Assembly (NCBI GenBank): GCA_014905825.1
Contig: JACGCN010000021.1
Span: forward strand, 372,001-436,000
DNA: 64,000 nucleotides
Direction: 5' to 3'
Source: Lyophyllum atratum
Lineage: Eukaryota; Basidiomycota; Agaricomycetes; Agaricales; Lyophyllaceae
Shown here: in pieces, positions 2,177 through 64,000 of the stretch
Position numbering within the stretch: position 1 is the stretch's first letter
Layout: every line of letters starts with the position of its first letter
Made by a program: the position numbers and the translations under genes
The notes under the pieces: generated by a model
What the model saw: the letters and a program-made list of their open reading frames with translations, nothing else
Databases searched by the model: none
What the model was told of the DNA's origin: nothing

Positions 2177-5100
2177 TCAGCTGCCTCGGACGTTTGAGAC
2201 ACCCGCATCACGAGGCAAGCGTCTCGGGCGCCGACGCCGTTGTTCGTGTTCAAGGGGGTCCAGGGAGCCGTCCAAGGCACGTGCCTTATGTTTTGTAGAC
2301 GGCGTCGATTGCTCAGGACCAATCGACGCGGCCACTGGACCGACAGCAGTAACCCGACGGCGCTTGCGCGCGCCGGGCGCTTGGGACTGATCTCCACGTT
2401 CGGGGAACGACGACGATGAGGCCGGCCCCAGGATTTTTTTCTTCCGGACCCTGTTAGCGTCCATGTGCTCGGCAAGTACAGTTGGTGCAGAGGCCACGGT
2501 GCTCGTATCACGTGCACGTTTCTTGATACGGGGCGCAGACACTATCGCAGGCGGTGGCGGCGCGGACGCCTTACCAGCCCCCCGACGTTGTAGGCGTTCC
2601 AACAATTTCCTTGGGTTTTCCCCATGTTCGAGGTGCGGGGCATCCTCATCCTTCTCGACATCGTCGCATTCGCTCATGTCACGTAGCATCCTTGCAGCTT
2701 CCGAAGCATCGTCCGTCTTCCCCCGAGCAACGAGTGTTCGCAGCCGGAGCACCTCAATCCGTCTTTTTTCGTCGCGGCTGTCTTGCGACAACGGGACCTG
2801 TACCCGTCTGGCTTCGAAATCCCGCAGTATGACCAGACCGTCCAAAGACGTCGCACGAGATGCCATGACGTATGGTGCTTCCGTTCCCCTGCAAGCCGCT
2901 AGATCGATAATCACGCGTTCCATCGTTTGCCCCTGCGCCCTGTGTGCGGTCATTGCAAACGCAGGCACTATGGGCACCTGCGTACGATGGAAGGTACATG
3001 TGTTGTTGTTGTAAGGATGCTTTAGCTGGAAAGACACAGAGTCCGCGAGGATAGGCATCTCATTCTGCATCAATCCTGGCATATGTTCCGCAGTCGCGTC
3101 TGGAATGTGGACAACGCATGACTGCAGGTGCCTGTCGCCCCGTGCATCCACTGTGTAGCGGATGCTCCTGATAGTCCCTCTGCTTCCGTTGACAACGCCG
3201 CCGTTGACGTCGAAATTCTGCGCGACCAAAACAGGCATCCCGACCACGAGCGGTATCTTTCCTAGCCGATACCCTGTCTTTACACACGAGATTCCACGCA
3301 GCTTTTTAACCAAAGCCTCGTCTGCAACAGGCGTCTTTTGCCTCCCGCGGCGGTCAGTGGCGTAGTAGTAGTGCAAGTCCTGACCTGTCTCCTTGGCAAA
3401 TTGGATCGCTGCACGTTCGTTGATGGCATCTCTTGTCGCATTGCTGGAGACGATTACAGGTGCATCCAGCCATCCACTTGCATTTCGGTTAAATGTTTTC
3501 GGGCTCATGATCCTGGTTTTCAGCATCGCCACGTCGTCAGGAGTACACCTGCCTTCCCGAAGCCGCTGTAGTAACTCCACAAACCCGGCATTGCGTTCAC
3601 CGGCTTGTCGATGCTGCTGATGCAGACAGACGACAGTCCGGACAGATAACCACAACAATCGGCCGGTCATCGCGTCCTGTGCGGCTGCACGTCGGCCTCT
3701 GGTCCTCAAATTCGCGTATAAACGTTGTTCGCCCACGGGCGGTAGTTGTGCAAAATCACCAGCGAAAATTACGTTGATTCCTCCGAAAATGCCGACATTT
3801 CCTTTGGCACGCGAAAGAGCCTCGCTAAGCTTGCTAAACAATTTGCAGCCGATCATGGAAACCTCGTCAACGAACAAAAAATCGACCCCTTCCCATAACG
3901 CGATCAAATCCTTGTTGTTGGCATTGGTTGTGTTACGACTGGCATGACCCATGCATAGCGCGGCGTGCAGCGTCATTCCACTCACGTTACGCGCCGCGAT
4001 ACCCATGAATGAGCACACCCGCAGTCGCCGGCTTTGGTTTTGCGTGTCAAAAAAATCCCGCAACGCATTCAGCACCCGAGATTTTCCTGTACCGGCGGGC
4101 CCGCCCAAGAACATGCGTAAAGGTTCGGAGGTGGTACAATCAACTTTGTTGGCACTCTGCTGAGCGATGATTCTGAAAGCGAGTGCCTGCTCGGCGTTCA
4201 TCGTCCATTTTTTCACGAGTTTTTCAATGGTGGTATCAATGTGGTCAGGAGCGCTTTGGGAACCTTGGGTTTCCATGATCTGGGGCAGCAAGGATGCGTT
4301 TCGCGAGTGGTCGGTGTTCGCTGCAGAAAGAGATTCGATCGTTGCACGCATGGGATTATTGGCCACGCCGGTTGCCTCAGGCGCTCTCGCGCCCTCCTTG
4401 GCCTGCTTCTTGAACTCTTTTCTACGCGTCACATAGGCTTCTCGCCAGCTGTCCTCAACATCATCATCACCTTCCTTTACTTCTTGCATTTTCGCGTCAC
4501 TTTCGTTGCCAATCTTGTCACGCTTCCCAGGGCTGAACAGGCCACCGTGTTGAGCCTGGAGCAAACAGTCTGTGACATCTTGCAAATTGTGTTCCGCGCG
4601 ATTGGACAGACATTCCTCGACGGAATCAATGTGCTTCATCACGTCCACGTCATCAACGGCTTCACCCATGAAATCATCAACCGTGTTCCTGGTTCCAATA
4701 AATTCCTGTCGCACCCGGAATCCTTTTCCCCGTGTCATGCGATTAGCGTAGTGCTCGTCCCTTTCGTCCTTGCACTCATGGAGGATCTGCATGTTGTCCA
4801 TGATTTCCCGGACACGGGGCTCTCCCGTGTTTGCACCCAGCAACCTCTCAAAAGCAGTACCCCAATCCTCCTCTGGCCGCCGCAAATCCGTAGCGTGTCT
4901 CCATGGGTGGAAAAAAATTAGCATCAGTCGGTGGTAACGACACTTTGTTTCGTGCTTGTCTCGGCGCGGTAGCGACGAAGACCCAATAGGCACAACGACA
5001 TGCCTCTGTAACGGCTGACGTATAATCTGATGATGCGTCGCCGCATTCTCATGTCCACATCCGAAATCTGACTTGGGACGGGTGCGCGATGTATCCATTA

Positions 5101-8100
5101 AAAGCTCGCGGGCGGAGAACAGCTGCTCCTCGGTTCGCACAGGGTCGTGGTCGTCTCCGGGCGCTATATCTTCACCTGCGTGAATGTCTTCTTCCATGAT
5201 CTCGTCCTCGGCTGTATCTTTGTCGTGTGTCCTTTTCTTAATCTTATCGACTTGGGCCATGAAATCCCATAGAGACAGATGCTGAAACATTACGCCACGT
5301 TGCACATAGTCTGCCACCAAGGACGACCTCCTCGTCAAAAGACCATCGTCGTCGATGTCAATTCGAACCTCCGTTTCCTCTCCAGTAACAGCGTCCACAT
5401 CAACGGTATCCTCACCCGGCTCCTCATTGTCATCCCTTTGTCTCTCTTCATCCTCATCTGGCTCATCATCGAGTTCGGATGAACTGTCGTCTGCCTTGTC
5501 TAGAGCAATCGCTGATGCATTATCGATGGGGTCCTCTTCAGACAGTGAGGTTTCGGCAGCCCCTCCACTGCCCATTTCTGGCTTTGATCGGTAGCATTCC
5601 GGGCTGGGTGACAGGCCATCGACATATGCTTCGAACAGTGTCCAGTGGAATTTTCTATACGTGTGGCTAGTGAAATGATCGCCATAACCCATCAAGTAGC
5701 TGGCCACCTGCTGTGCAGACAACTCCTGATGTGATATCATAGCATGTGCACATTTTTGAAGCATCTGCTTCGCGCGCACCGTCTTCAAATTGTCGCCCGG
5801 CAATTCCTCCCCAAGTTTGCTGACGGCCAATTCAAGCGCAGCAAAAGCGACGTGACTTTTCAATTGAGACTTGGAAATGTAGTTGGTAATATAATACAGG
5901 ACGGCTTTGGCACACGTCCCCGACCCTATGAACTGGATGTCCATGTTGCATCGCATGGCTTGAATGATGGTGGCGTTAAAGTTGTTGACCAAACCATCTA
6001 AACATCGGAGGGTAACTACGCCTGTCTCCGGATCAATCGTAGTGATAGGAATGAAGTTGGAGGGGTCAAGGTCGAATCGACACTGGTCTTTGGAGTATTT
6101 GTAACAAGTCTTTGAATGGCTGTGGACCTGACATTGTTCAACAATATTATGGAAATCCATAGCTTCGTCCTCTTCTGTTGGTTGAAGCATACCGTTTAAA
6201 CCCCTCACGGATGCGGCACGAAACTGGGAGGATGGAACTGCCGTCATGGATTCAGGAGCAGGTGGAACAGCGTTGGATATTGTATCATCCAGAAAGGCAA
6301 CCAGCCGTTGTTGAAAATCGGACCCGGGGTTGTTTGTAACTCGTTCCTTGATCTCGTTAGGATTTAAGGCGCCCTCCAACCATATCATCATATGACAATG
6401 GAGTGTGCCTCGACCTTGAGCTTCGACCACACCATAATACCCTTTGCAGAGACCAAGGATCCCCCCGTCCATATTTTTGCCGTGCCCGCAAAAGCCAAGC
6501 AATGTCTGGAAGAACGCTGTCATATACGTGTGAAAGAATTTGGCGGCAACGATGGGGTTCTTGGCTACTAGAAGCGATTGCTCCCAATAAGTTGGTATTT
6601 CCGTTTCGTCCATGTGGTCAACATCAATCTCATTCCCCGCAAGAAATTTGACGACTGGATTGTACACGTCAGCCGGATTGATTGTCAAGAAAAAACTTGG
6701 TAAGCCAAGGTGCATCATCAGACCTCGCATTTCATTCCTCATTGTCACTTTGCTTGGTGCCGACCCAGGGACTTGGGCGGTTATAACATTGACCTCTTTC
6801 ATGAGTTGCAATACCTGCCTTTCTTCGTCATCCCTTGCAGTCACAATGTCACCCCGAGTAGCGCGGTCTGTAACGGCCTGAACGGCTGCGAGGGAGACAT
6901 GTGCAAATTTACTGGCGACGCCGGCGAAGTCAGACCTCTTGACCTTTAAACTGGTGTGCAAAAGGAGCGCCCTCCGTTGTAAGATATTGAAAGCTATGAA
7001 CATGAACGAGTGGTGTTCCTGAAACCGGCGATCCGCGAGTGAAAACAAGTGGGTAACATGGGCTTTTAACGATACTGGTCGTTTCCGCTTTGGGTCTTCC
7101 ATGCCACCCAACCCATAGGGGTACAAAGTCGGGTACATCATTGGGAACAGTACGGGATTCTGATATTCGTTGACAGGGTTATGACCATGTGGAATGCTCA
7201 TGTAACCACCGTCGGCTTTGAAGTGTCTAACAGCTGCAGCACGAAGCTGATTCATTGAGGCGTGTCCGTCGACGTCGGTAATGACGACATTCTGAAATAC
7301 AGTGTCCTGCTGTGCGGCGTCTTCCGCTGGTTGACAGTTGTTACTGTCGTACCGTGCCTGTAGCATCTCCTGGGTATCAGTAGGCAAAATATGCTCGATA
7401 TGGTAAGGAAGAAAAGGAAGTTGACTGATTTCATGCAAAACGCGCTCGTTAATGCTGACGTTACGATATAGCGGATTATTATTGATTAGCCATACGAGGG
7501 CCGCCCGCACACGATCATGTTGAGCAAGTGATACCGCCGTTACCTATTTTGGATACTTACATAAGATACATGTTTTCTCTCCGATTTTGTCCATCCACAC
7601 CTCAGTGCATTCTACATTCACTGAGGTGTAAGTCCCTTATATATTTCACTCACTATCTCATACTGATACCTCGTAGTCTACCTTCTTTATTATTCAGGTA
7701 TACTCAATATATTTAGTGCATTCTACATTCACTGAGGTTCTACCTTCTTTATTATTCAGTCTCACCTCGCCGTTTCGCTCCGTTGCCCCGAATACCCGGT
7801 CCACTGCTCAACAGGTTATGGGCCCCGAACAAACCTTTGACATCTCGACCAGTAAGGTCACTCTACCGAAGCTGTCGAGCGATGGTTCCAATTGGTCGAC
7901 CTACAAAGACAGGGTCATGAACACGCTCACATCAAAGAAGCTTCGTCGTCACGTCACCGGTACAGCGCGTAAACCGGCGGAGCTACACGAGCAAAGCGGA
8001 GCCTTCTTCAGGGCTGGATCCCTCGCCCCTTTGTCGGATGAGGAGCTGGAGAAGCACGAGGATGCGATGGATGAGTGGTTGCAAAAGGAGGCGCAGGTCC

Positions 8101-11100
8101 GGGAGGTCATCTACGGAACTGTCGATCAGTCCACGTTCATTCAAGTCAAGAATGAAACTACCGCTGCTGCCGTTTGGAAGAAACTTGCCTCGATCCACGG
8201 CGATCGCGGTGTCTTGTTCGAAACCGACCTTCTCACGCGACTTCAGAATTCACGCTACGTCGAAGGCGATGATATGCGCACTCATCTCACCAACCTCACA
8301 TCCATCAAGGACCGCCTTGCCGAAATCGGTTCCCCACTCTCCGATGAATCATTCACCTCCTATATCCGCACTTCGATATCCCTCGTCCCTACATTTCGCC
8401 CCTTATTCACGACCCTTGCTGCTGCATCCCGCACTTCTGGAAAGCCTACGACGAGCCAAGATCTAATCTGGCACCTCACTGAGGAGGCGAACTCCACTGC
8501 GATAGAAGATAGCATCAATAAGTCCAATCAGGCCATGCTCGCAGCTCACGCAAAGTCGAAAGGGGAAAGCGGCCGTAAACCGAAGGGGAATGCGAGGGGA
8601 AAGGGTAAAGGGAAGGAGAAGGAGAAGCGTCAGTGTGGGAACTGCGGCATGACTGGGCACACCGATGACCAGTGTTTTACGGAAGGGGGAGGAATGGCTG
8701 GGAAGGCTCCCGATTGCGACGGCGAAAATTATGCCTTCCTCACCATCGACACTCCCAGCGACGACGACATCGAAAACGTCGCATTCGCCATCACCTCTGG
8801 GCATGATCATGAAGCCCATTCCGCATCTCCGTCTGCTGGTGTCATCCTCGATTCCGGTGCTAGTGGTTATTTCTCGCCAGACCGAGAGAAGTTCCTTAAC
8901 TTCCAGGAAATCACTCCTGAGCCTATCCGCGCAGCCGACAAACGCACGTTTAGCGCTCTTGGCAGAGGCGATCTTCGCATCGAGCTGCCTATGAAGAATG
9001 GGCAGAAGTCAACTCCCATTTTACTCAAGAAGGCATACTACGCACCTCAGATTGCCTTTACACTCGTCTCAGTGTCGTGTCTCGATCGCGCCGGGTGTTC
9101 CCTCCTCATCGAGGATGGGATGTGCGTCGTCCGCAGTCCAAAACCTCAACGAAGGATTATTGGCGAAGTCCCCGCAGTCCGTGGGTTGTATCGCATCGAT
9201 CCATCCGCCATCTTGTCCCCATCCCGTCATGTCGCCAATTCAGCGTCTAAGGTCATAACGATCAGTGAGCTCCACCGTCGAATGGGGCATATCAATCACA
9301 AAGACTTACGGGAGGCAGTCCGCCTTGGGATGGTCACTGGCGTTGAGCTCGACATGTCGTCGGAGCCCGAGGAATGCGCAGCCTGTATCAAAGGGAAGAT
9401 GTCACGTCAACCTTTTCCAAAGGAGAGCACGACCACCTACGAGCGATATGGCCAGAAAGTCGTGGCTGATTTGTGGGGTCCTGCTCAGACGAAATCCCTC
9501 GGTGGAGCATCATACTCTTACCTTAATATCGACGTCTCTACTCGGGAGGCGGAGATCTTCTTCCTTGCCCGGAAATCGGATACCTTCAAGACCTACAAGG
9601 ACTATGAAGCCTGGGTCAAGGTCCAACGTCAGGCGACGATCGAAATCTATGGTAGCGATGGGGGCGGCGAATTTATCAGCAAAGAATTCGACGAACATCT
9701 CAAATCGGTCGGGACAGTTCGTCATTTGACTGTCCACCACTCTCCCCAGTCCAACGGCATCGCCGAACGCGCCAATCGAACCTTCGTGGAGGGCGCTCGC
9801 ACCATGATGATCGCTGCAGGCTTGCCCAAATACCTATGGGCTGAAGCGTTCCGATGGATGGTGTGGCTGCGAAATCGCGCCCCAACCCGTTCCATCCCAG
9901 ATGGGAAGACTCCGCATGAAAGGGCAACAGGAAAGAAGCCTGACCTTTCGATGGTCCATGAATGGGGCTGTGTCGTTTATGTCAAACGTCGCGTTGCTGG
10001 GAAACTCGAGCCGAAAACAGAGGAAGCTCGATTTGTGGGTATAGATGACAAGGCAAAGGGCTATCGTGTCTACTGGCCTGAAAAGCGCAGGGTATCTGTG
10101 GAAAGGGATGTATATTTTAGCAGGGAAGCTATACTCAACCCGGAGAATGTCAAGTTTCCGGGGGAGTGGGACTTACCTTCGAATCCAGACATTCCCCAGC
10201 CTTCCAACCCTTCCAATTCGCCTCCCAGCACATCTCCCACCATCGAAAACCCTCCAGCTGCCGCTAAGGTCCCGAAATCGACCGAAAACGTCGGAAAATC
10301 ACTCGAAAATCCTCCAGATGTCTCAGACAACAAGAATCCCCCTCCTGCTGCTCCACCACACCTCAGAACTCGCCGGAATTCGCTTAAAGGCCTCCCACAG
10401 TACGACGAAAATGAGTACGGCCGTGGTCATCGCCGAAAACAGACGAAAAATGCCAATGCCGCTGAAAACTCGGAAAGCGCATTCGTTGCCGATTTTGATG
10501 GGATCCTCGATTCGGGCAGTGTCGAGTTTGAAGGGATCGAAGCTGAATGGTTTCAAGAGGCCATAGAGACGGCCATGGCAGCCAGTGAGGACGAGCCGCC
10601 TTTGAAGGACGCGCTCAGTGGTGATGAGAAAGAAGATTGGGCCGGCGCTATTGAGGCCGAGCTCGCCCAAATCGAGAAACTCGGCACGTGGGAACTAATA
10701 CAAGCACCCGCGGACGCCAATGTCATTCCCTGCCGTTTCGTCCTGCGTCGCAAACGCGATGCAAATGGCAATATTGTCCGCTTTAAGGCGCGTCTCGTCG
10801 CCAAGGGTTTTATGCAACGTTTCGGTGTTGACTACGACGAAACCTTTGCACCCACGGTCCGTGCAGCAACCCTTCGCACCCTCCTCTCTATCGCAGCTTC
10901 CCGCGGCTCGGTTGTCGAACAAGCCGACGTGAAAAATGCGTACCTCAACTCTTTCCTCAAGGAGAACGAGGTCATTCACATGAAATTCCCCCCTTACTAC
11001 CGCCGCTTTCGCACTCTACCACCTGAACTCGCCGATTTGACGGATTCACAGATTGTTTGCAAACTCAAACGACCACTCTACGGTACGAAGCAAGGCGCGC

Positions 11101-14100
11101 ACCATTGGTACCAGGAGCTTTGCCGCATCTTCAAGCTCCTTGGCTACTCCATCTGCATGGCTGATGAAGCTGTGTTCTACAAGTTCCAAGACGACAAATA
11201 CACGATCGTGGCCGCCGCAACCGACGACTTTACAATCATCGGTGATTCTACGGCAGCCACCACCCTGATCAAGAAGCAGTTCAGTGAACACTTCGAGATC
11301 GTGGACCTTGGACCTATCAACTGGCTTCTCGGAGTCAGTATCACGCGAGATCTGAATGCCAGAACTATGGCACTTGGTCAACAAGCTTATATTGAACAGA
11401 TTCTCGCTCGTTTTGGTCTCGAGGACGCTCGGATCGCTATTACACCCATGGAGCCGTCAATCGACCTCACTCCCGACTCCCCAGCCGTCTCTCACGTCCT
11501 TCTTTCACCCGCTGAAAAGACCAAATATCGCGAGATGATTGGTTCGCTCATGTACGTCACGGTCATGACGCGCCCCGACATTGCGTTTGCGGTCTCCACC
11601 CTTTCGCAATACCTCGACTCTGCCAGAACGACTCACATGGTCGCCGTTACTCGGGTTTTCCGCTACCTACGTGGCACGAGCAGTCTGAAACTCGTCCTCG
11701 GTGGTCACAATCCTGAAGTCACTGGCTATTCAGACGCAGATTGGGCGTCGCATATGCATCGCCACTCGATCTCCGGATTCGCCTATTTCGTCGGTCTCGG
11801 GGCGGTGTCCTGGAGCGCAAAGAAGCAGCCAATTATCACGCTCTCAAGCACGGAATCGGAATATGTCGCACTGACACATGCCGCTAAGGATATCATTTGG
11901 ATTCATAAATTACTTACTGAACTTTCTTTCTTTTACCCTATCTCCCTACCTACCACAGTTTTCTGCGATAACCAAGGTGCCATTCGCTTATCAAAGGACT
12001 CTACTTTCCACGGTCGCACGAAACATATCGACGTTCATTTCCATTTCATTCGACAAACTATTTCCTCCGGTCACGTCACTTTGCTCTATTGTCCTACTTC
12101 CGACATGATCGCGGACATCTTCACCAAGTCGCTTGCTCGCGTCAAGCTTGAAAAGTTCCGTGAACTTCTTGGTGTCGTCTAGTCCCGCGTTCATCTCGAG
12201 GGGGAGTGTTGAGCAAGTGATACCGCCGTTACCTATTTTGGATACTTACATAAGATACATGTTTTCTCTCCGATTTTGTCCATCCACACCTCAGTGCATT
12301 CTACATTCACTGAGGTGTAAGTCCCTTATATATTTCACTCACTATCTCATACTGATACCTCGTAGTCTACCTTCTTTATTATTCAGGTATACTCAATATA
12401 TTTAGTGCATTCTACATTCACTGAGGTTCTACCTTCTTTATTATTCAGTCTCACCTCGCCGTTTCGCTCCGTTGCCCCGAATACCCGGTCCACTGCTCAA
12501 CAGATCAGCACGCACAGCCAAAGGTTTAGCCTTTTCCCTCAACCACTTGTCACTGGGCTTTTCAGACCCAATGAAAAGAATGGTAATTGGTGTCACGATA
12601 TCGGCTATCGAAGGCGGGAGCATGGTGGCAATCTCTCCTGGGTCCTGTGGATAAATAATACAATGACCCTTGACGCCTTTCTGCACATTGACGTTAACCC
12701 GCGATGAATTTTCCTCCTGCAGCTGTACAATCCACATTTTGGCCCTACACAGGGCTATCATAGACTCCTCAACCTGCGTGAGTTCCTTAAGAGCGTCGGG
12801 AACTGGACCAAGGAACATTCTGTTCGCCAGTGCGAGACGAGGCAATTTTTTCCTGGACAGCGGCACCGAACATTCTACGCACAGCTGAAGAGACTGAACA
12901 CCATCAGGGGCCGTGACAATTCCTTCGGGGTCAAGCAGGACGTTTGCGAACGGACCTGTTGTGAACGGCAGAAAGCTCTTATTGAAGACGTGAGCAGAAC
13001 CATAACCGTGTTCGTCATCGGGGCAGGAAAGCATATCCGCATCATCGTCGTCTGAACCTTCATCCAAAGAAACTTGATTAATGGGTGTAGGACAGCCGGG
13101 ATACAGTAAGACGGTCAAATCCAAAGCCGCACAGGGAATCGTTTGCAACGCTGATACTAAGACGGCCTCGCCGCAACAAGCACAAGTTTTCGTTCGCAAA
13201 GCATCACTCGATGTCTGCTCGCGAAACATAGACATCAGTTTGTCCTTGAAGTCAGCCGATAACTTTGATGGCCAGTCAGCAGAAACCTTGCGCATTTTTA
13301 GTCTGTCGGGCAAGGACAACCTCATTGCGTCTAAGCTACTCTCCTTGCCATTTAGCAATCTTCGACCATGTCGTACCAACGTCTTCCGCAGCTTAGCCAG
13401 CCCGGCCGCGGTGTCATGGTCGATGTCATGGCATTTAAGAAGGCGCCGCAACGGTTTCAGAGCGATTTTTGGAGCCATGGATATAAATAAGTGGCCCTGT
13501 AGTTCATCGTTGTTTTGTCCGCCGGCGGAAGGCATGTCCTGACTGAAATCGGCGCAGGCAGGCGGAGAAAATGTACTTCCATGCAAACAGGTGCCGAGAG
13601 ATATGTACAAAAGAATGCCGTCTTTCAAGTCGGCCATGTTTCCTGTTATAGAGAAACCATGAGCCGCAGCCGTTTCGAGCAACTGGGGACGCGTTATTTC
13701 GTCGCACTGCATCAGGAACTCGTGACTGCACAGGTCACGTTCAATGACAGCACGAAAGGCCCTTAGTTGATTCTGTATGATATCTTTTTTATTTCCAGGT
13801 CCGACACGATATCCAATGCCTGCACAAACGATCTCCAACAAGTCGTGGCTAAACTTGTCGGTCCTCATACTGTCAATCACTGCATCGACCACGCGCGTCC
13901 GAAGCAAAGTAGATGGGGCCGAACCAGCGATAAACTGACATGTGGGTGTGCCTCGCATCGCACAAACACCAAACATCAAGTGATGGCAAAGTAAACGCTG
14001 ATTTACATGAGGGGATAGGCCCGGTGCAATACCATGTTCACGAAGACTGTCCAGCAGTATGGACTCATCAAAGGTATCCAAAACAAAATGCGGTGATTCT

Positions 14101-14688
14101 CGGTCCATAAGCGTCGCTAAGATGTGGGCGATGTTAGGCTCGCAGTAAGTAGAGGTCGTGGCAGCATCCGTGGTCATCACAGGGCGGGAATACAACGCTG
14201 TGGATGCCAAAAAATCATGGGTAGCGTGTTCAGGAACAGCATGTGCATTTATAACGGGGGGATCGTGATCCACAGGGTGCGGCGAAGCCGCGGCTGTGTG
14301 TGACAAAATGTCCACTGAAAGAGTGGTGAGCTTCAAAGGTCCAAATATGACGAGGTAGATACTGACACAGGGTCGGTTGAAACGTAGCGAGATCGAAGTC
14401 AACCGCGCGCGGTGGTTGGAGGTCCGACGCAATGAGATGTTCCCGGAAACCAGCGAACCAATCCAGATCAAAGACGACATCTGCGCTGGGGACGATGTTC
14501 AAGGGAATGAGACATGTGAAGGTGGAAGAGGAGGCATAGTGGGCTGTGACCGGAAGAGTTATCGAGCCTGTGGAAGCTCTGGCAGTCGAGCCGAGAATGC
14601 TCGACAAAACAGAATGTGGAAGGCGTGAGGTAGGGACTGAGGGGTCGAAACGAGCGGAGACCGCCACGCGTCCGATCCTGAAGCTCAT
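2177..14688 (-). CDS. Helitron Rep/helicase (RepHel), split by copia-1
   Basis: Rolling-circle transposase: a HUH Rep endonuclease nicks and joins Helitron ends and a Pif1-type helicase unwinds DNA. Exon 1 is 14688-14367, a 52-nt intron (14366-14315, GTCAGT...TTTCAG) follows, and exon 2 is 14314-12503 continuing at 7512-2177. Removing copia-1 plus one GATCA copy gives 2490 codons with no stop. In the joined protein (approximate residues): SAP-like helical stretches ~190-340; a Cys motif CACC ~485 in a DUF6570-like region; Helitron_like_N; the HUH pair 'TLHCHMMIW' ~1083; tyrosines in 'YYITNYISK' ~1252 and ~1256; an acidic linker ~1370-1430; Walker A 'GGPAGTGKS' ~1850; Walker B 'LFVDEVSM' ~1927; 'GDFAQLPPV'; 'TAHRAQGQTM'. 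The tail is basic (KKRAR, RKRRR). All catalytic motifs look intact; the only lesion is the retrotransposon. A TATATAA lies ~35 bp upstream of the ATG. Confidence 0.93.
7513..7517. repeat. Target-site duplication of copia-1 (left copy)
   Basis: GATCA directly precedes the 5' LTR (TGTTGAG...). The matching copy is at 12503-12507 directly after the 3' LTR (...CTCAACA). Five base pairs is the usual Ty1/copia duplication length. Confidence 0.95.
7594..7631 (+). promoter_or_regulatory. copia-1 hairpin over cap site and intron-1 donor
   Basis: ACACCTCAGTG pairs perfectly with CACTGAGGTGT (11 bp, short loop). The 3' arm ends in the GT that starts intron 1. The predicted transcription start (7604) lies within the 5' arm, so RNA started in this LTR lacks most of that arm. 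RNA reading through the 3' LTR would contain all of it. Confidence 0.7.
7604..7759 (+). promoter_or_regulatory. copia-1 LTR splice module (B1-intron-A1-spacer-B2-A2)
   Basis: B1 is 7604-7627 and intron 1 is 7628-7676 (49 nt, GTAAGT...CGTAG, branch-like ACTGAT). A1 is 7677-7697. A GTATAC donor at 7698 opens a spacer, followed by B2 at 7715-7738 and A2 at 7739-7759 (ending TTATTCAG). B2 equals B1 and A2 equals A1 base for base, and B2 joins A2 exactly as splicing of intron 1 would join B1 to A1. A possible intron 2 runs 7698-7759 (62 nt). The same module recurs in the 3' LTR. The sequence identities are seen directly; splicing itself is inferred. Confidence 0.85.
7814..7827 (+). promoter_or_regulatory. 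copia-1 primer-binding site containing the start codon
   Basis: GGTTATGGGCCCCG directly follows the LTR. Its first 12 bases are the complement of GGGCCCAUAACC, the anticodon arm of eukaryotic initiator tRNA-Met. This suggests half-tRNA priming as in Drosophila copia and Ty5. The ATG within it (7818-7820) pairs with the CAU anticodon and is the first ATG of the gag-pol frame downstream of the predicted cap site. Confidence 0.8.
7818..12182 (+). CDS. copia-1 Gag-Pol polyprotein, 1454 aa
   Basis: A single open frame encodes Gag, protease, integrase, reverse transcriptase and RNase H in Ty1/copia order. A UBN2/gag-like region is followed by a CCHC knuckle 'CGNCGMTGHTDDQC' (near 8633). The protease motif is DSGAS (near 8848). 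The integrase has its zinc-binding part ('HRRMGHI'), D in 'ADLWGP', D in 'GSDGGGEF' and E in 'NGIAERANRT'. RT starts around 'CRFVLRRKRDANG' and has TDDF where most copia elements have YVDD, with both aspartates kept. RNase H shows 'YSDADWA' and 'SSTESEYVAL'. The frame extends upstream into the LTR, but the first ATG after the predicted cap site is at 7818 within the primer-binding site. No frameshift separates gag from pol. Confidence 0.95.
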   Translation: MGPEQTFDISTSKVTLPKLSSDGSNWSTYKDRVMNTLTSKKLRRHVTGTARKPAELHEQSGAFFRAGSLAPLSDEELEKHEDAMDEWLQKEAQVREVIYGTVDQSTFIQVKNETTAAAVWKKLASIHGDRGVLFETDLLTRLQNSRYVEGDDMRTHLTNLTSIKDRLAEIGSPLSDESFTSYIRTSISLVPTFRPLFTTLAAASRTSGKPTTSQDLIWHLTEEANSTAIEDSINKSNQAMLAAHAKSKGESGRKPKGNARGKGKGKEKEKRQCGNCGMTGHTDDQCFTEGGGMAGKAPDCDGENYAFLTIDTPSDDDIENVAFAITSGHDHEAHSASPSAGVILDSGASGYFSPDREKFLNFQEITPEPIRAADKRTFSALGRGDLRIELPMKNGQKSTPILLKKAYYAPQIAFTLVSVSCLDRAGCSLLIEDGMCVVRSPKPQRRIIGEVPAVRGLYRIDPSAILSPSRHVANSASKVITISELHRRMGHINHKDLREAVRLGMVTGVELDMSSEPEECAACIKGKMSRQPFPKESTTTYERYGQKVVADLWGPAQTKSLGGASYSYLNIDVSTREAEIFFLARKSDTFKTYKDYEAWVKVQRQATIEIYGSDGGGEFISKEFDEHLKSVGTVRHLTVHHSPQSNGIAERANRTFVEGARTMMIAAGLPKYLWAEAFRWMVWLRNRAPTRSIPDGKTPHERATGKKPDLSMVHEWGCVVYVKRRVAGKLEPKTEEARFVGIDDKAKGYRVYWPEKRRVSVERDVYFSREAILNPENVKFPGEWDLPSNPDIPQPSNPSNSPPSTSPTIENPPAAAKVPKSTENVGKSLENPPDVSDNKNPPPAAPPHLRTRRNSLKGLPQYDENEYGRGHRRKQTKNANAAENSESAFVADFDGILDSGSVEFEGIEAEWFQEAIETAMAASEDEPPLKDALSGDEKEDWAGAIEAELAQIEKLGTWELIQAPADANVIPCRFVLRRKRDANGNIVRFKARLVAKGFMQRFGVDYDETFAPTVRAATLRTLLSIAASRGSVVEQADVKNAYLNSFLKENEVIHMKFPPYYRRFRTLPPELADLTDSQIVCKLKRPLYGTKQGAHHWYQELCRIFKLLGYSICMADEAVFYKFQDDKYTIVAAATDDFTIIGDSTAATTLIKKQFSEHFEIVDLGPINWLLGVSITRDLNARTMALGQQAYIEQILARFGLEDARIAITPMEPSIDLTPDSPAVSHVLLSPAEKTKYREMIGSLMYVTVMTRPDIAFAVSTLSQYLDSARTTHMVAVTRVFRYLRGTSSLKLVLGGHNPEVTGYSDADWASHMHRHSISGFAYFVGLGAVSWSAKKQPIITLSSTESEYVALTHAAKDIIWIHKLLTELSFFYPISLPTTVFCDNQGAIRLSKDSTFHGRTKHIDVHFHFIRQTISSGHVTLLYCPTSDMIADIFTKSLARVKLEKFRELLGVV
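12207..12502 (+). repeat. copia-1 3' LTR
   Basis: This is the second 296-bp copy, preceded by the purine tract at 12198-12206 and followed by GATCA (12503-12507). The splice module and hairpin are present and unchanged. Confidence 0.95.
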
Positions 14689-20481: not shown

Positions 20482-21756
20482 ATGTCCGTTCGTCTGTCGT
20501 CATTTGCGCGACTTGCCCTCTTCCTGTTGGCAGTCTTCCCTTCCTGGGTACAATGTGAGTTGGCCGAGTCTCCGCTAATGCGTCACCGATGTCACTAACC
20601 CCACCTAGGCAGCAGCAGTGAATCTCCTATGAAGCGGGCGGCTTGCCCAGCCCTACCAAGTAGCCCGCAGTTCTCCGACACTGCTCTGCCCGATCCCTTC
20701 ACCTTTCTGGACGGTTCAGCTGTAACCACCTTAGACGCCTGGACTTGTCGCCAGGCAGAGGTCAATTCGCTTTTCCAGATCAATGAGCTGGGTGCAAAGC
20801 CGCCGCCCCCCTCGACTCTGACCGCGACCTTGAGCTCATCCAATGCGCTTGCCATCACTGCTTCTGAAGCCGGAAAATCCATCACGTTCACGCCAACCAT
20901 CTCGCTCCCCACTACTGGGACGGCGCCATTCCCAGCCATCATAGCCTTTGATGGCTTGAGCATTCCCCGCCCAGCGGGCGTCGCTCTCATCACATTCAAT
21001 GTCGATGATATGGCACAACAGGTGAACCTCGCTAGCCGTGGCCAAGGAAAATTCTTCTCCCTATACGGGGCTAATGCTACTGCAAGCGCCATGATGGCCT
21101 GGGCCTGGGGAGTCAGCCGCATCATCGATGCGCTCGAAATGACACCTAGCGCCCACATTGACACGAAACGCATCGGCGTGACGGGATGTTCGCGTAATGG
21201 CAAGGGCGCGTTGGTCGCAGGCGCTTTTGATATACGCATCGCTTTGACGATTCCGCAGGAGTCTGGCTCCGGCGGTACGGACTGCTGGCGCCTGTCGGAT
21301 GCGCTGCAGGCGCGTGGGGTCGTCACGCAGACGGCGTCGGAGATTGTGCAGGAGAACGTTTGGTTCTCGAGGTCGTTTGAGACGTTCGCGAATACGTCTG
21401 TGAACACGTTGCCGGTCGATCACCATATGCTTGCGGGGCTGGTTGCGCCCCGAGCGTTGTTTGTTATTGACAATGTCGGGATCGACTGGTTGGGCGCGGA
21501 GAGTTCGCTTGGGTGCATGAAATCGGCGCGCAGGATTTGGCAGGCTTTGGGCGCGTCGGACAACATGGGATATTCGCAGGCGGCAAGCCATGACCACTGC
21601 TCGTTCCCGGCGTCGCAGCAGGCTGTCTTGACTGCGTTTATTGACAAGTTCTTGTTGGGTCTCTCGACTAACACGACGGTGACGGAGACGGCAGGGAACT
21701 ATACGTTTGATACGCCAGGTGTATGGGATCCCTGGAATGCCCCGCAGTTATCATGA
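20482..21756 (+). CDS. Secreted 4-O-methyl-glucuronoyl methylesterase (CE15)
   Basis: This enzyme cleaves ester links between lignin alcohols and glucuronoxylan side chains in the cell wall of plants. Exon 1 is 20482-20554, the intron 20555-20608 (GTGAGT...CCTAG), and exon 2 20609-21756, giving 406 aa. The N-terminus is a signal peptide ('LALFLLAVFPSWVQC'). Catalytic Ser ~219 lies in 'GVTGCSRNGKGA', an acidic residue ~242 in 'PQESGSGGTDCW', and His ~352 in 'ASHDHCSF', the Ser-Glu-His triad of the family. Length fits a CE15 without a cellulose-binding module. It stands alone, about 1 kb from the next gene. It indicates a plant-biomass-degrading lifestyle. Confidence 0.95.
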
Positions 21757-55630: not shown

Positions 55631-55977
55631 TGTTAGAATCCTATACCGTATAGACTAAGTGATAAGAGAGAATGTAAACCTCAGTCTCTTGTATAGTTGA
55701 CTAGTGTATTGATCATCGTACCTAAGTGATAAGAGAGAATGTAAACTAAGGTACGTCAGTAATGATAAGTATGGTGAGTAAGTAAGTGGCTCACCCTCAG
55801 TCTCTTGTATAGTTGACTGAGGGTGTAAAGACGAGTAGCTACGGGTATATATACTGTATGTATGATAAAGGTCCTTTGTATCTAAGAGGCCGTTTGTCAA
55901 GTATGAGATAAAGAAATAGACCGTGATCTAATCGGCCCTCGACACAAAGCGTCTAGGTGCCTGATCAGATCCTAACA
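55631..55977 (-). repeat. copia-3 3' LTR (347 bp)
   Basis: On the minus strand it starts TGTTAGGATC and ends ...GGATTCTAACA, inverted TGTTAG ends. TATATATA (55846-55853) lies 35 bp before the predicted cap site at 55818. The partner LTR is outside the window, so the boundaries rest on the inverted ends and the adjacent purine tract. Confidence 0.85.
55655..55818 (-). promoter_or_regulatory. copia-3 LTR splice module (B1-intron-A1-spacer-B2-A2)
   Basis: On the minus strand: B1 55818-55795, intron 1 55794-55746 (49 nt, GTGAGC...CTTAG, branch TACTGAC), A1 55745-55722, GTACGA spacer from 55721, B2 55702-55679, A2 55678-55655 (ending CACTTAG). B2 equals B1 (24 nt), A2 equals A1 (24 nt), and the B2-A2 junction equals spliced B1-A1. 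A hairpin CACCCTCAGT / ACTGAGGGTG (10 bp) spans 55825-55792 and covers the intron-1 donor. A possible intron 2 is 55721-55655 (67 nt). Confidence 0.85.
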
Positions 55978-56909: not shown

Positions 56910-57309
56910 TGTAGAGAATCACAATAAGTAAGCCTTAGAGTCCGACACAATGTGTTAGACGACTATATTATGTACCTGTAGAGAATCACAATAAGTAAGC
57001 TACAGGGAATAAGTCAGTAACGAAGTAAATAGGATGTAAGTAGAGTTGGCTCACCCTTAGAGTCCGACACAATGTGTTAGACGACTAAGGGTGCCCTTTT
57101 TCTGTGTACTAGGTAGATATACGATCGTGAAATAGAGTTCTGGTAAAGACTGGTAAATAACGAGCGGCAAACTGAATAGAAACGCACCACGACGCTCTGC
57201 GCCGTGGCGTAACGAATAAGCGAGACTTCTAAATATAGTAAAAGGCCATATAAGGAAACTTATCATATCGAGGACCTTCCCTCGGGTCTAGGCAAGTCCT
57301 ATCTCAACA
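56910..57309 (-). repeat. copia-2 3' LTR
   Basis: This 400-bp copy matches 61805-62204 base for base as far as I can follow by eye. It contains the same splice module and hairpin. Confidence 0.95.
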
Positions 57310-61800: not shown

Positions 61801-61804
61801 AACC
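61791..61804 (-). promoter_or_regulatory. copia-2 primer-binding site containing the start codon
   Basis: On the minus strand GGTTATGGGCCCCG directly follows the LTR, identical over 14 nt to that of copia-1 although the two interiors are unrelated at the DNA level. ATG is at 61800-61798. It is complementary to the initiator tRNA-Met anticodon arm. Confidence 0.8.
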
Positions 61805-61982
61805 TGTAGAGAATCACAATAAGTAAGCCTTAGAGTCCGACACAATGTGTTAGACGACTATATTATGTACCTGTAGAGAATCACAATAAGTAAGCTACAG
61901 GGAATAAGTCAGTAACGAAGTAAATAGGATGTAAGTAGAGTTGGCTCACCCTTAGAGTCCGACACAATGTGTTAGACGACTA
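61804..61982 (-). promoter_or_regulatory. copia-2 LTR splice module (B1-intron-A1-spacer-B2-A2)
   Basis: On the minus strand: B1 61982-61950, intron 1 61949-61895 (55 nt, GTGAGC...CTGTAG, branch TACTGAC), A1 61894-61871, spacer starting GTACAT at 61870, B2 61860-61828, A2 61827-61804 (ending CTCTACAG, the last G being the first base of the primer site). B2 equals B1 (33 nt), A2 equals A1 (24 nt), and they join as spliced. A hairpin CACCCTTAG / CTAAGGGTG (9 bp) covers the donor. GTATATC (62011-62017) lies 35 bp before the predicted cap site. A possible intron 2 is 61870-61804 (67 nt). Confidence 0.85.
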
Positions 61983-62204
61983 AGGGTGCCCTTTTTCTGT
62001 GTACTAGGTAGATATACGATCGTGAAATAGAGTTCTGGTAAAGACTGGTAAATAACGAGCGGCAAACTGAATAGAAACGCACCACGACGCTCTGCGCCGT
62101 GGCGTAACGAATAAGCGAGACTTCTAAATATAGTAAAAGGCCATATAAGGAAACTTATCATATCGAGGACCTTCCCTCGGGTCTAGGCAAGTCCTATCTC
62201 AACA
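61805..62204 (-). repeat. copia-2 5' LTR
   Basis: The 400-bp LTR upstream of gag. On its outer side comes ATCTG (62205-62209), the second copy of the target duplication. Confidence 0.95.
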
Positions 62205-64000
62205 ATCTGATATAGTCCACGCGGTACGCATCTGGGCTTTGAAACGGTCGTTTTCGGCTTTGGAGTCCGCAATGGATAGGAAGTCATCCACATGGACAGC
62301 GGCTATGATAGTACCAGTGTCAGTTTTGCGGTAATAGATGCAGGACTCGCAAGAAAGGCGTGTAAATCCCCAAGTCATCATGTTGTCGTTGAGCGTTTTG
62401 TTCCATATCCTTCCGCTTTGCTTCATGCCGTACAATCCCCTAACCAGACACCATACCCAGTCACCTTTCCCCGGTTCCTCGAATCCTTCCGGTTGTTCCA
62501 TGTACTGGGTTTCGTCTTCAGGTAGTAATCCATATAGGAAAGCCGTTTTCACGTCGATTTGAGTCGCGTCCCAGCCTTTAGAGGCGGCAATATGAAGGAG
62601 AATTCGCCACGACTCCATACGCGCTGTGGGTGAGGTGGTTTTGGTGTAGTCTCGCCCGTATATTTGTTCGTAGCCTTTGAATACTAGACGAACCTTGAAT
62701 CTGACCGCTTTCCCGTTTTCATCTCGTTTGATCTTAAAGATCGGGCGTCCCTTGCGTACTTTCTGACCTTGTGGTACCTCGGAACGAGGTATGAGCTTGT
62801 AAACCCCCATCTCCTTCAATGAGTTCAGTTCATCTCTATATCCCTCCGCCCATCTATCCGCGTCTGCGGAGGCCTTAGCTTCTGCCCACGTTTTCGGCTC
62901 ATCATCAAACTCGAGACTCGTCGGATCAATCCCTCCGGAGTCCATGATGGCTGCCAAGAGTCGATCATGATCGAGATCGTCCCTGAGCTCAGGAACATCC
63001 AGTAGATCCCTGATCTCGGATCCGGCGTCGACGTCATGGGTCTCGGCCTGTGCGCGACGTTCCGCTTTGGCGGCTTTGACGCGTTCCGCGCTCTCTTTCG
63101 ATTCCTGGACTGCGCGTTGCGTTGCAGTTGGGTGGTCAGGGTTGATTTTTGTAGTGGGCGTAGGTATGCGATTGGAACGTCGCAGAGGTTCGGGAGCAGG
63201 GGGTATGTCCGGTAAGGGTGCGAGATGGTCGACTGGCGGTAATGCCGGTGGATTAACCTGTTCCTCGACAATCGGCAGAGGTAAGGCTTCATCGTCGTCG
63301 ACATGGATCGGGTTAACAGTTGAGCTTGCACGAATATGCTCGAGAGTTGACGATTCTTCTGCGGCAGCGTCGGGAAGATGGAGAGGTGGAGGTATATGAC
63401 CGTCATGGCTTTCAAGGAAGCGGACATGGTATGATTGATGGACCTTCTGGGTTTGTCGCTCGTAGCACCGGTAGGTTTTCGAGTTTTGTCCGTATCCGAT
63501 GAGGATGCATTCTACGGAGCGCTCATAGATCTTTGGGTTATGTGCGTTGATAAGAACGAAAGCTCGACATCCTATTTCCCTCATATAGGAGTAGTCAGGT
63601 TTGCGTTCATACCAGAGCTCGAACGGGGTGGTTCCTTTGAGTGATTTGGTGACGGTCTTCTCATGTAGGTGCGCTGCCGTGAGGTAAAATTCGTCCCATA
63701 AATTTGTGGGGCATCCCGTCGCGATCCGCATGGTTCGCGCTTTTCCCATGAGCGTGCGATGCATGCGTTCGACGCGTCCCATGTGAGCTGAAGTATAGGG
63801 CGCGCCCAATTCCTGAGTTGTGCCTCGAGATTGTAACCACTTATCCATCTCGTGTCCTTTGAGTTCCCCATCGAAGCCGGTGCGATAGATACCGACTTTT
63901 AGTCCTGTCTCCGTCTCTCTCGCGAGTTCCCAAGCCTTCAGAGCAGGAAGTGCGTCGGACTTGAGTTTCAGGGGGATGGACCACGCTTTACTGGAATAGT
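62205..64000 (-). CDS. copia-3 Pol, integrase to RT (truncated by window edge)
   Basis: Open to position 64000, so the integrase N-terminus, protease and gag are not in view. The integrase core has 'TGFDGELKGHEMD' where the second catalytic aspartate normally sits in a TDxGGE-type motif, then 'APYTSAHMGRVERMHRTLMG' with the catalytic Glu. A Pro/Arg-rich linker follows. RT begins at 'EMGVYKLIPRSEVPQGQK' and has 'AAVHVDDFLSIAD' at the active site. It ends at 62205, where copia-2 interrupts, and continues at 56904. Confidence 0.95.

Follow-up and report, generated by a model that had tools for sequence, protein, structure and literature searches.

A candidate intron and its spliced copy in the long terminal repeats of Ty1/copia retrotransposons of Lyophyllum atratum

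The copia-1 element and the layout of its LTRs

Here we describe the long terminal repeats (LTRs) of copia-1, a Ty1/copia retrotransposon in a 64-kb stretch of the Lyophyllum atratum genome assembly (64.8 Mb); this whole stretch is referred to as the window. Each LTR contains an intron-like sequence between two short segments, B1 and A1, followed by a second copy of these segments, B2 and A2, fused as if the intron had been spliced out. We examine the occurrence of this layout at other copia loci of the genome, and its implications for the replication cycle.

The element occupies positions 7518-12502 of the plus strand. Its 5' LTR (TGTTGAG...CAACA, 296 bp, 7518-7813) and 3' LTR (12207-12502) are identical, with corresponding parts offset by 4689 bases, and are flanked by the target site duplication (TSD) GATCA at 7513-7517 and 12503-12507. 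The primer binding site (PBS) GGTTATGGGCCCC lies directly 3' of the 5' LTR (7814-7826), and the polypurine tract (PPT) GGGGGAG precedes the TGTTGAG of the 3' LTR. A single gag-pol open reading frame (ORF; 7818-12182, with an ATG at 7818 that overlaps the PBS) encodes gag, an integrase region and a reverse transcriptase (RT), with the Pfam domains in the order Retrotran_gag_2, gag_pre-integrs, rve and RVT_2. The same order is found in a second element of the window, copia-2, and the rve match falls under the curated cut-off in both. Identical TG...CA LTRs, 5-bp TSDs (GATCA in copia-1, CAGAT in copia-2), PPT, PBS and gag-integrase-RT in one ORF are all features of Ty1/copia elements (Pseudoviridae). 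The 13-nt PBS sequence is matched exactly at 94 sites of the genome, counting both strands (compared with 2 for a control pattern), and also follows the LTRs of the type I and type II elements defined below. We take it to resemble the internal initiator-tRNA site of Drosophila copia. No tRNA gene matching the PBS was found: the window contains none, and a single match of 14 nt was not recognised as a tRNA by ARAGORN.

Within the 5' LTR, B1 (24 nt, 7604-7627) is the presumed first exon, and its first base (7604, C/AGTG) the presumed transcription start. It is followed by intron 1 (49 nt, 7628-7676, GTAAGT...ACTGAT...TCGTAG), by the presumed second exon A1 (21 nt, 7677-7697, ending CAG/GT), and by a 17-nt spacer (7698-7714) which contains CAATATA, a putative poly(A) signal. 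B2 (7715-7738), the presumed landing site of the strong-stop cDNA, is fused to A2 (7739-7759), which ends in CAG. Spacer, B2 and A2 together form a presumed intron 2 of 62 nt (7698-7759), with the GTATAC directly after A1 as its start and the CAG that closes A2 as its 3' splice site. A predicted hairpin joins the 5' arm 7597-7607 (ACACCTC upstream of B1 plus the AGTG of B1) with the 3' arm 7619-7629 (the end of B1 plus the first two intron bases, that is, the 5' splice site). In the 3' LTR, the same parts lie at 12293-12316 (B1), 12317-12365 (intron 1), 12366-12386 (A1), 12387-12403 (spacer), 12404-12427 (B2) and 12428-12448 (A2), all on the plus strand. The original prediction had been made on the 5' LTR, and on recheck of the sequence all of its coordinates for the LTR parts were correct, as were its claims on the GTATAC and CAG boundaries and on the copies: B2 equals B1 at 24/24 and A2 equals A1 at 21/21 positions, joined exactly where the intron ends meet.

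The same layout in other LTRs of the window

Sequences in which B, a segment of 40-80 nt bounded by GT and AG, A, a gap of 0-30 nt and fused BA follow one another were searched for on both strands of the window. Five matches were obtained in the window, corresponding to the two LTRs of copia-1, the two LTRs of copia-2 and a further LTR at about 55.7 kb. No match was found in 358 kb of sequence shuffled in two-base blocks, and the layout is thus not due to chance. An intended control with coding sequence gave three matches, all of them LTRs lying within the slices used.

copia-2 lies on the minus strand (62204-56910) with the TSD CAGAT on both sides. Its layout (B1, GTGAGC..TAG intron, A1, spacer, B2-A2) is that of copia-1 with different letters, and B2-A2 abuts the PBS. 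The 5' LTR (61805-62204) consists of B1 (61981-61950), intron 1 (61949-61895), A1 (61894-61871), spacer (61870-61860), B2 (61859-61828) and A2 (61827-61805, plus the G at 61804 of the PBS), and the 3' LTR (56910-57309) has the same parts. The third LTR of this type (55655-55818, minus strand) has B1 at 55818-55795, the intron at 55794-55746, A1 at 55745-55722, the spacer at 55721-55703, B2 at 55702-55679 and A2 from 55678.

copia-2 is apparently inserted in another copia element, as a truncated RVT_2 match on the same strand (62205-63848) stops at its 5' edge. copia-1 is flanked by two minus-strand ORFs (2177-7510 and 12441-14480) that resemble one Helitron-type gene, with Helitron_like_N and PIF1 domains on one side and DUF6570 on the other. 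A fungal-type glucuronyl esterase domain is encoded at 20629-21753.

Distribution in the genome

Genome-wide, 150 of 156 RVT_2 matches were used and merged into 124 places, and about 0.8-1 kb downstream of each was examined. Elements with intron 1 are referred to as type I, while type II elements carry a single exon (R1, GT.., spacer, R2 ending in AG) and no intron 1. Type I LTRs are present at 64 of the 124 places, in about 38 sequence forms (37-39 by different keys); two of these places were set by inspection (L066, and one judged by its 5' LTR, L052). Of 11 scripted type II calls, ten are genuine and the eleventh (L127) is a type I copy that lacks intron 1. The other 49 places include degenerate type II copies (L009, L026 and L107), collapsed LTRs (L016 and L110), families without the plan (e.g. 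L029, L032, L033, L069, L071 and L074), and truncated or unresolved copies. All 49 tails were tested by script, and 12 + 16 were inspected by eye.

A tree of RT domains was built for 48 loci (23 of type I, midpoint root), with many forms remaining outside it. Some of its type I branches exceed one change per site, and the L029/L032/L033 family, which has no such plan, is nested in a type I clade. The plan has persisted through much turnover of its own sequence, and it can be lost. The deep branches are poorly supported and long branches meet, which is compatible with one or several origins. A search for homologous proteins (8000 candidates scored) gave relatives of up to 57% identity. A scan of viral contigs with the copia-2 RT gave no relative, and a PBS-based scan gave two viral contigs with one common stretch, in which the plan is absent.

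Two irregular copies were encountered. L042 (C35:1381026) is a U3-B fragment that stops at the 3' end of exon B and continues into unrelated sequence. In L098, A2 breaks off at 9 nt and is joined to coding sequence, with a second LTR beyond it; this break might mark an RNA 3' end within A2 joined by template switching.

B2-A2 matches the spliced form of B1-A1

The identity of the two copies was followed in 78 type I LTR instances, found via near-exact repeats and with the 5' and 3' LTRs of some elements counted separately. B1 equals B2 in 75 of the 78, and A1 equals A2 over the first 14 nt in 76. One of the B mismatches (L093) is due to a script start too far upstream, while L037 and L056 carry one and two substitutions. 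B and A vary between forms (37 distinct B1 sequences). A count of '37 of 37 mirrored differences' was dropped as independent evidence, since it follows automatically once B1 equals B2 in each form.

A mismatch-tolerant search, which scores 18 nt of B plus 12 nt of A in the best GT..AG structure, gave 0 mismatches out of 30 in 74 of 76 type I tails, 1 in one tail and 3 in another. Among the 49 other tails, 48 gave 10-14 mismatches, compared with 10-15 in shuffled sequences, and the L006 tail gave 8, due to an unrelated repeat. There is thus no half-diverged class. Independent divergence of B1/A1 and B2/A2 had been named in the original prediction as the observation that would count against it; it was sought among the family members and none was found. 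The two B copies of an LTR are 104-125 nt apart, and exactly two copies of the B end are present in 74 of 75 tails, the third copy in L098 belonging to its second LTR.

Splice signals and loss of the intron

The junction between B2 and A2 fits the intron ends, as had been predicted: GT-AG placement is kept in 75 of 76 longer structures obtained without requiring it, except in L059, where the structure is a low-complexity repeat. The length of intron 1 ranges from 49 to 62 nt; it most commonly starts with GTGAGC (18/37 forms), and has a YTRAY motif 8-30 nt from its 3' end in 29/37 forms. A1 ends in AG/GT in all 32 forms scored, giving a presumed intron 2 of 54-70 nt. A2 ends in AG in 24 of these 32 forms, judged on the LTR instance shown, the script favouring such instances and the G sometimes being flanking DNA. 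In the other eight, only a 3' LTR, which stops at A2 and lacks the G, was scored; in L012, one of these eight, the missing G is the first base of the PBS that follows the 5' LTR. Among the PBS-bearing loci listed, 13 of 16 have an LTR one base short of AG that is completed by the PBS, and L145, L016 and L001 have a U5. In many families the presumed 3' splice site of intron 2 needs the first G of the PBS and is assured only beside the 5' LTR.

L127 lacks exactly the 50-nt intron 1 (GTATGC...TTATAG) that is present in its siblings L124, L128, L130 and L131. L127 and L124 do not differ in the 260 nt that precede the missing intron or in the 62 nt that follow it, while L128, L130 and L131 also differ from L127 at the base before B2. 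The 5' LTR of the same element (L155), which lies beside the PBS, lacks intron 1 as well. As the intron is absent from both LTRs, the intron-less form must have gone through reverse transcription. Such a product would be expected if a partly spliced leader landed on B1 or if the 3' LTR itself was spliced; prior gene conversion by B2-A2 is a less direct alternative.

Collapsed LTRs are also found. The L043 5' LTR (C76:566342) lacks both introns as well as the second copy and reads U3-B-A-PBS, and the L110 and L016 LTRs are reduced to R1-U5. Such products would fit mis-landing on the first copy, and simple recombination between repeats (B1 with B2, R1 with R2) would give the same result. The L043 3' LTR and the L110 5' LTR were not found in the stretches fetched, so that the two routes are not distinguishable here.

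A variable base marks the edge of B2

Close copies were compared in 18 families with at least two elements (16 of type I, including copia-1 with L003, and two of type II), with L009 and L127 excluded. The base preceding B2 or R2 varies (C, T or A) in 11 of the 18 families, and the base preceding B1 or R1 in none. At other positions 95 of 2322 cells vary, with single spacer positions varying in at most 4 of 18 families (binomial P about 1e-11, ignoring the relatedness of copies). In copia-1 this base is T, and in its 94% identical relative L003 it is C. The copia-3 LTR has three extra bases at the same spacer/B2 point. In the type II element L025, R2 extends 9 nt upstream with a sequence identical to the bases before R1, the period still being 57, as if the RNA had begun 9 nt earlier. 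This pattern would be the expected trace of untemplated or start-site-dependent bases at the end of the strong-stop cDNA, and places the working U3/R junction probably at the boundary of spacer and B2. First-strand transfer on B2 would thus account for a hotspot before B2 and none before B1.

The presumed transcription start is the A that opens B1. This A is preceded by C (28/38 forms) or T (10/38), and a TATA-like word lies 31-37 nt upstream of B1 in 21/38 forms. The sequence AATA is found within 25 nt before B2 in 29/37 forms (a count given without a chance rate), with AATAAA in L008, and the RNA 3' end is likely to lie in or after B2-A2.

A hairpin over the 5' splice site

Bases upstream of B1 can pair with B1 and the first part of the intron to form a hairpin, which was analysed in 38 forms after dropping the L037 and L056 instances (anchor words not found). 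As the anchors fix or narrow the inner-pair bases, the test rests on the outer pairs. At k = 4-8, 160 of 190 cells pair, compared with 101 (sd 8, maximum 126, 2000 shuffles) when the 3' arms are swapped between forms, a statistic that ignores the relatedness of forms. Pairing is found in 100%, 97% and 92% of these forms at positions 5, 6 and 7, through CG, AT, GC, TA and GU pairs, and the pairs track the changing 5' splice site. In 34 of the 38 forms the unbroken stem spans at least two intron bases. Type II elements have the same feature at their sole 5' splice site, e.g. ACCTGAAGTCC...GGACTTCAG/GT in L008 (read by eye).

The copia-1 hairpin has a predicted energy of -17.4 kcal/mol (z -5.7), which falls to -3.5 when the sequence is cut at B1 as in the capped RNA. 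As the 5' arm lies upstream of the presumed cap, the hairpin could form only in RNA of the 3' LTR. We infer that it may block splicing of intron 1 and hide B1 as a landing site in the 3' copy only.

Proposed replication cycle

Taken as a whole, the LTRs very probably contain a split and duplicated R region, in which B2-A2 would be rewritten from spliced RNA in each cycle while the intron is retained. In the proposed cycle, the RNA would start at the A of B1, and the host spliceosome would remove intron 1 and intron 2 (spacer, B2 and A2) from the 5' leader, giving cap-B-A-(U5)-PBS. Because of this splicing, the minus strong-stop cDNA would end in the complement of B-A. The RNA would be polyadenylated in or after B2-A2, with intron 1 of the 3' LTR copy left unspliced. 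The strong-stop cDNA could then land on the ready-spliced B2 of the 3' LTR and be extended through the spacer, A1, intron 1, B1 and U3. In each cycle, U3-B1-intron-A1-spacer would be inherited from the 3' LTR, and B2-A2-U5 rewritten from the spliced 5' RNA. This split inheritance would both preserve the intron and keep B2-A2 equal to the spliced B1-A1.

A further suggestion concerns the choice between the two RNA ends. An arm of about 7 nt upstream of the cap would be absent at the RNA 5' end, so that the leader would be spliced, and present in the 3' LTR part, so that the 3' copy would stay unspliced. Removal of intron 2 would also take the poly(A) signal out of the leader. We lean towards this reading, in which leader splicing removes both the poly(A) signal and the landing copy of a duplicated R, and the hairpin makes splicing depend on the RNA end, and hold it with moderate confidence. 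The route of strand transfer set out in the original prediction finds support in the genome, through the equality of B1-A1 and B2-A2, the splice signals at the junctions, the hotspot at spacer/B2, the intron loss in L127, the promoter spacing and the hairpin. An RNA in which intron 2 stays unspliced in the leader was rejected, as BA arrays would then grow and 74 of 75 tails hold two copies of the B end.

Several observations weigh against the proposed cycle. We infer the splicing of both introns in the leader from the DNA sequence, the A exons are very short (14-27 nt), and the presumed intron 2 has an unusual start, GTCAAT, in 4/32 forms. L127 demonstrates that loss of the intron is possible. 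In 17/38 forms no TATA-like word lies at 31-37 nt, including copia-1 (nearest such word 46 nt upstream) and copia-2 (none), and the list of TATA words was loose and picked after viewing examples. AATA before B2 is missing in 8/37 forms. The stem reaches one intron base in three forms and none in one. RNAfold predicts a less accessible 5' splice site in 31/38 forms when the upstream arm is included (mean unpaired 0.17 with the arm, 0.27 without it and 0.25 with shuffled upstream bases), which lends weak support to masking, and copia-1 goes in the opposite direction (0.34 vs 0.21). Finally, 49 of the 124 places are without the plan, and the nesting of a plan-less family in a type I clade implies that the device is dispensable.

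Alternative explanations

It is conceivable that B2 is the ordinary start and R region, with B1-intron-A1 a fossil insertion or decoy in U3, and that replication proceeds without splicing. A hypervariable preceding base at B2 alone would also fit an ordinary U3/R junction, and the forms lacking a suitably spaced TATA-like word before B1 point the same way. However, B1 would in that case be inherited from the 3' LTR and B2 from the 5' LTR, and with no exchange between them the two should drift apart, yet they are equal in nearly all instances; for this reason a transcription start at B2 was rejected as the main model. Furthermore, the TATA spacing, where present, and the invariant C/T-A start fit B1, and there would be no reason for intron signals and a hairpin to persist in about 38 forms. 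We consider this explanation improbable.

B2-A2 might instead have formed once, by retro-recombination with spliced RNA, the copies being kept alike since then by gene conversion at the DNA level. The distance between the B copies permits conversion, and the L127 loss could be a B1-intron-A1 converted by B2-A2. Conversion would often erase the intron or shift the junctions, yet 64 places keep the plan; it predicts neither that a single base varies at the B2 edge while the B1 edge stays constant, nor that the beginning of B2 should coincide with a TATA-spaced start in 21/38 forms, and we give it little credence. A third explanation, that strand slippage or hairpin-guided jumping of the RT fuses B to A at the DNA level and that the intron-like ends are coincidental, draws on the strong hairpin that ends near the 3' edge of B1. 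It is very hard to reconcile with GT-AG ends in 75/76 unselected junctions, lengths typical of short introns and branch-like motifs, and appears highly improbable. Self-priming on spliced cDNA does not account for the fusion, since in 34/38 forms the upstream arm is complementary to two or more intron bases, not to exon A; self-priming of the strong-stop cDNA was likewise rejected as the origin of the inverted repeat.

Comparison with known systems

Copia elements of the type described here differ from typical Ty1/copia elements in that each LTR contains two R-like units, one interrupted by an intron and the other spliced (64/124 places), with transfer probably on the inner copy. The colinear order U3-R-U5 with one R per LTR is not found; this is a variant feature, and membership in Ty1/copia stands. 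Reverse transcription of spliced RNA is the standard route of intron loss, and an intron kept in the region that is copied first is therefore a strong exception. Penelope-like elements are reported to retain introns through retrotransposition; they have another type of RT and are not known to have an integrase or LTR-style strand transfer, unlike the present elements, which have an rve-type integrase region and true LTRs with TSDs.

In retroviruses, one and the same unspliced sequence serves as R at both ends of the RNA, and we know of no intron within R of retroviral genomic RNA. The strong-stop cDNA of HIV-1 and other retroviruses transfers to the 3' R, and the exact RNA 5' end influences the transfer (PMC4668388); the HIV-1 R carries the hairpin TAR (PMC13185573). 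R-mediated first-strand transfer and a hairpin in R are thus points of likeness, while an R split by an intron and accompanied by its spliced copy is a difference.

The barley copia element BARE, with a single ORF, is transcribed into RNAs of which some are spliced and others are not, and the RNA pool used for translation is distinct from that used for replication (PMC3735527). Splicing in BARE makes a subgenomic Gag RNA, and the abstract is silent on an LTR intron or its inheritance (PMC3735527). The fungal copia element GalEa has an unusual priming region, with a conserved hairpin replacing the PBS; neither 'intron' nor 'splic' occurs in the main text of its description (PMC5445492). Unlike GalEa, which is distinguished by having no PBS, the elements described here have one, and their hairpin lies at the U3/B1 border. 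No description of an LTR intron or of its spliced copy in a retrotransposon was found among the titles and abstract openings listed from open-licence literature. The elements may thus be regarded as a Ty1/copia variant with a replication step that we know of nowhere else.

Implications

The layout would explain how two sequences that are not adjacent evolve in exact concert with no need for gene conversion at the DNA level, and the hotspot base would allow first-strand transfer to be read directly from genome sequence. The suggested position-dependent splice switch could be rebuilt as a small reporter. If true, the proposed cycle would answer two textbook questions on LTR elements: why the poly(A) signal acts at the 3' end of the RNA and not at its 5' end, and by what means an intron can outlast reverse transcription. 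As roughly one in two of the examined copia RT places has the plan, it may well occur in other fungi, where it could be sought in assemblies and RNA-seq data.

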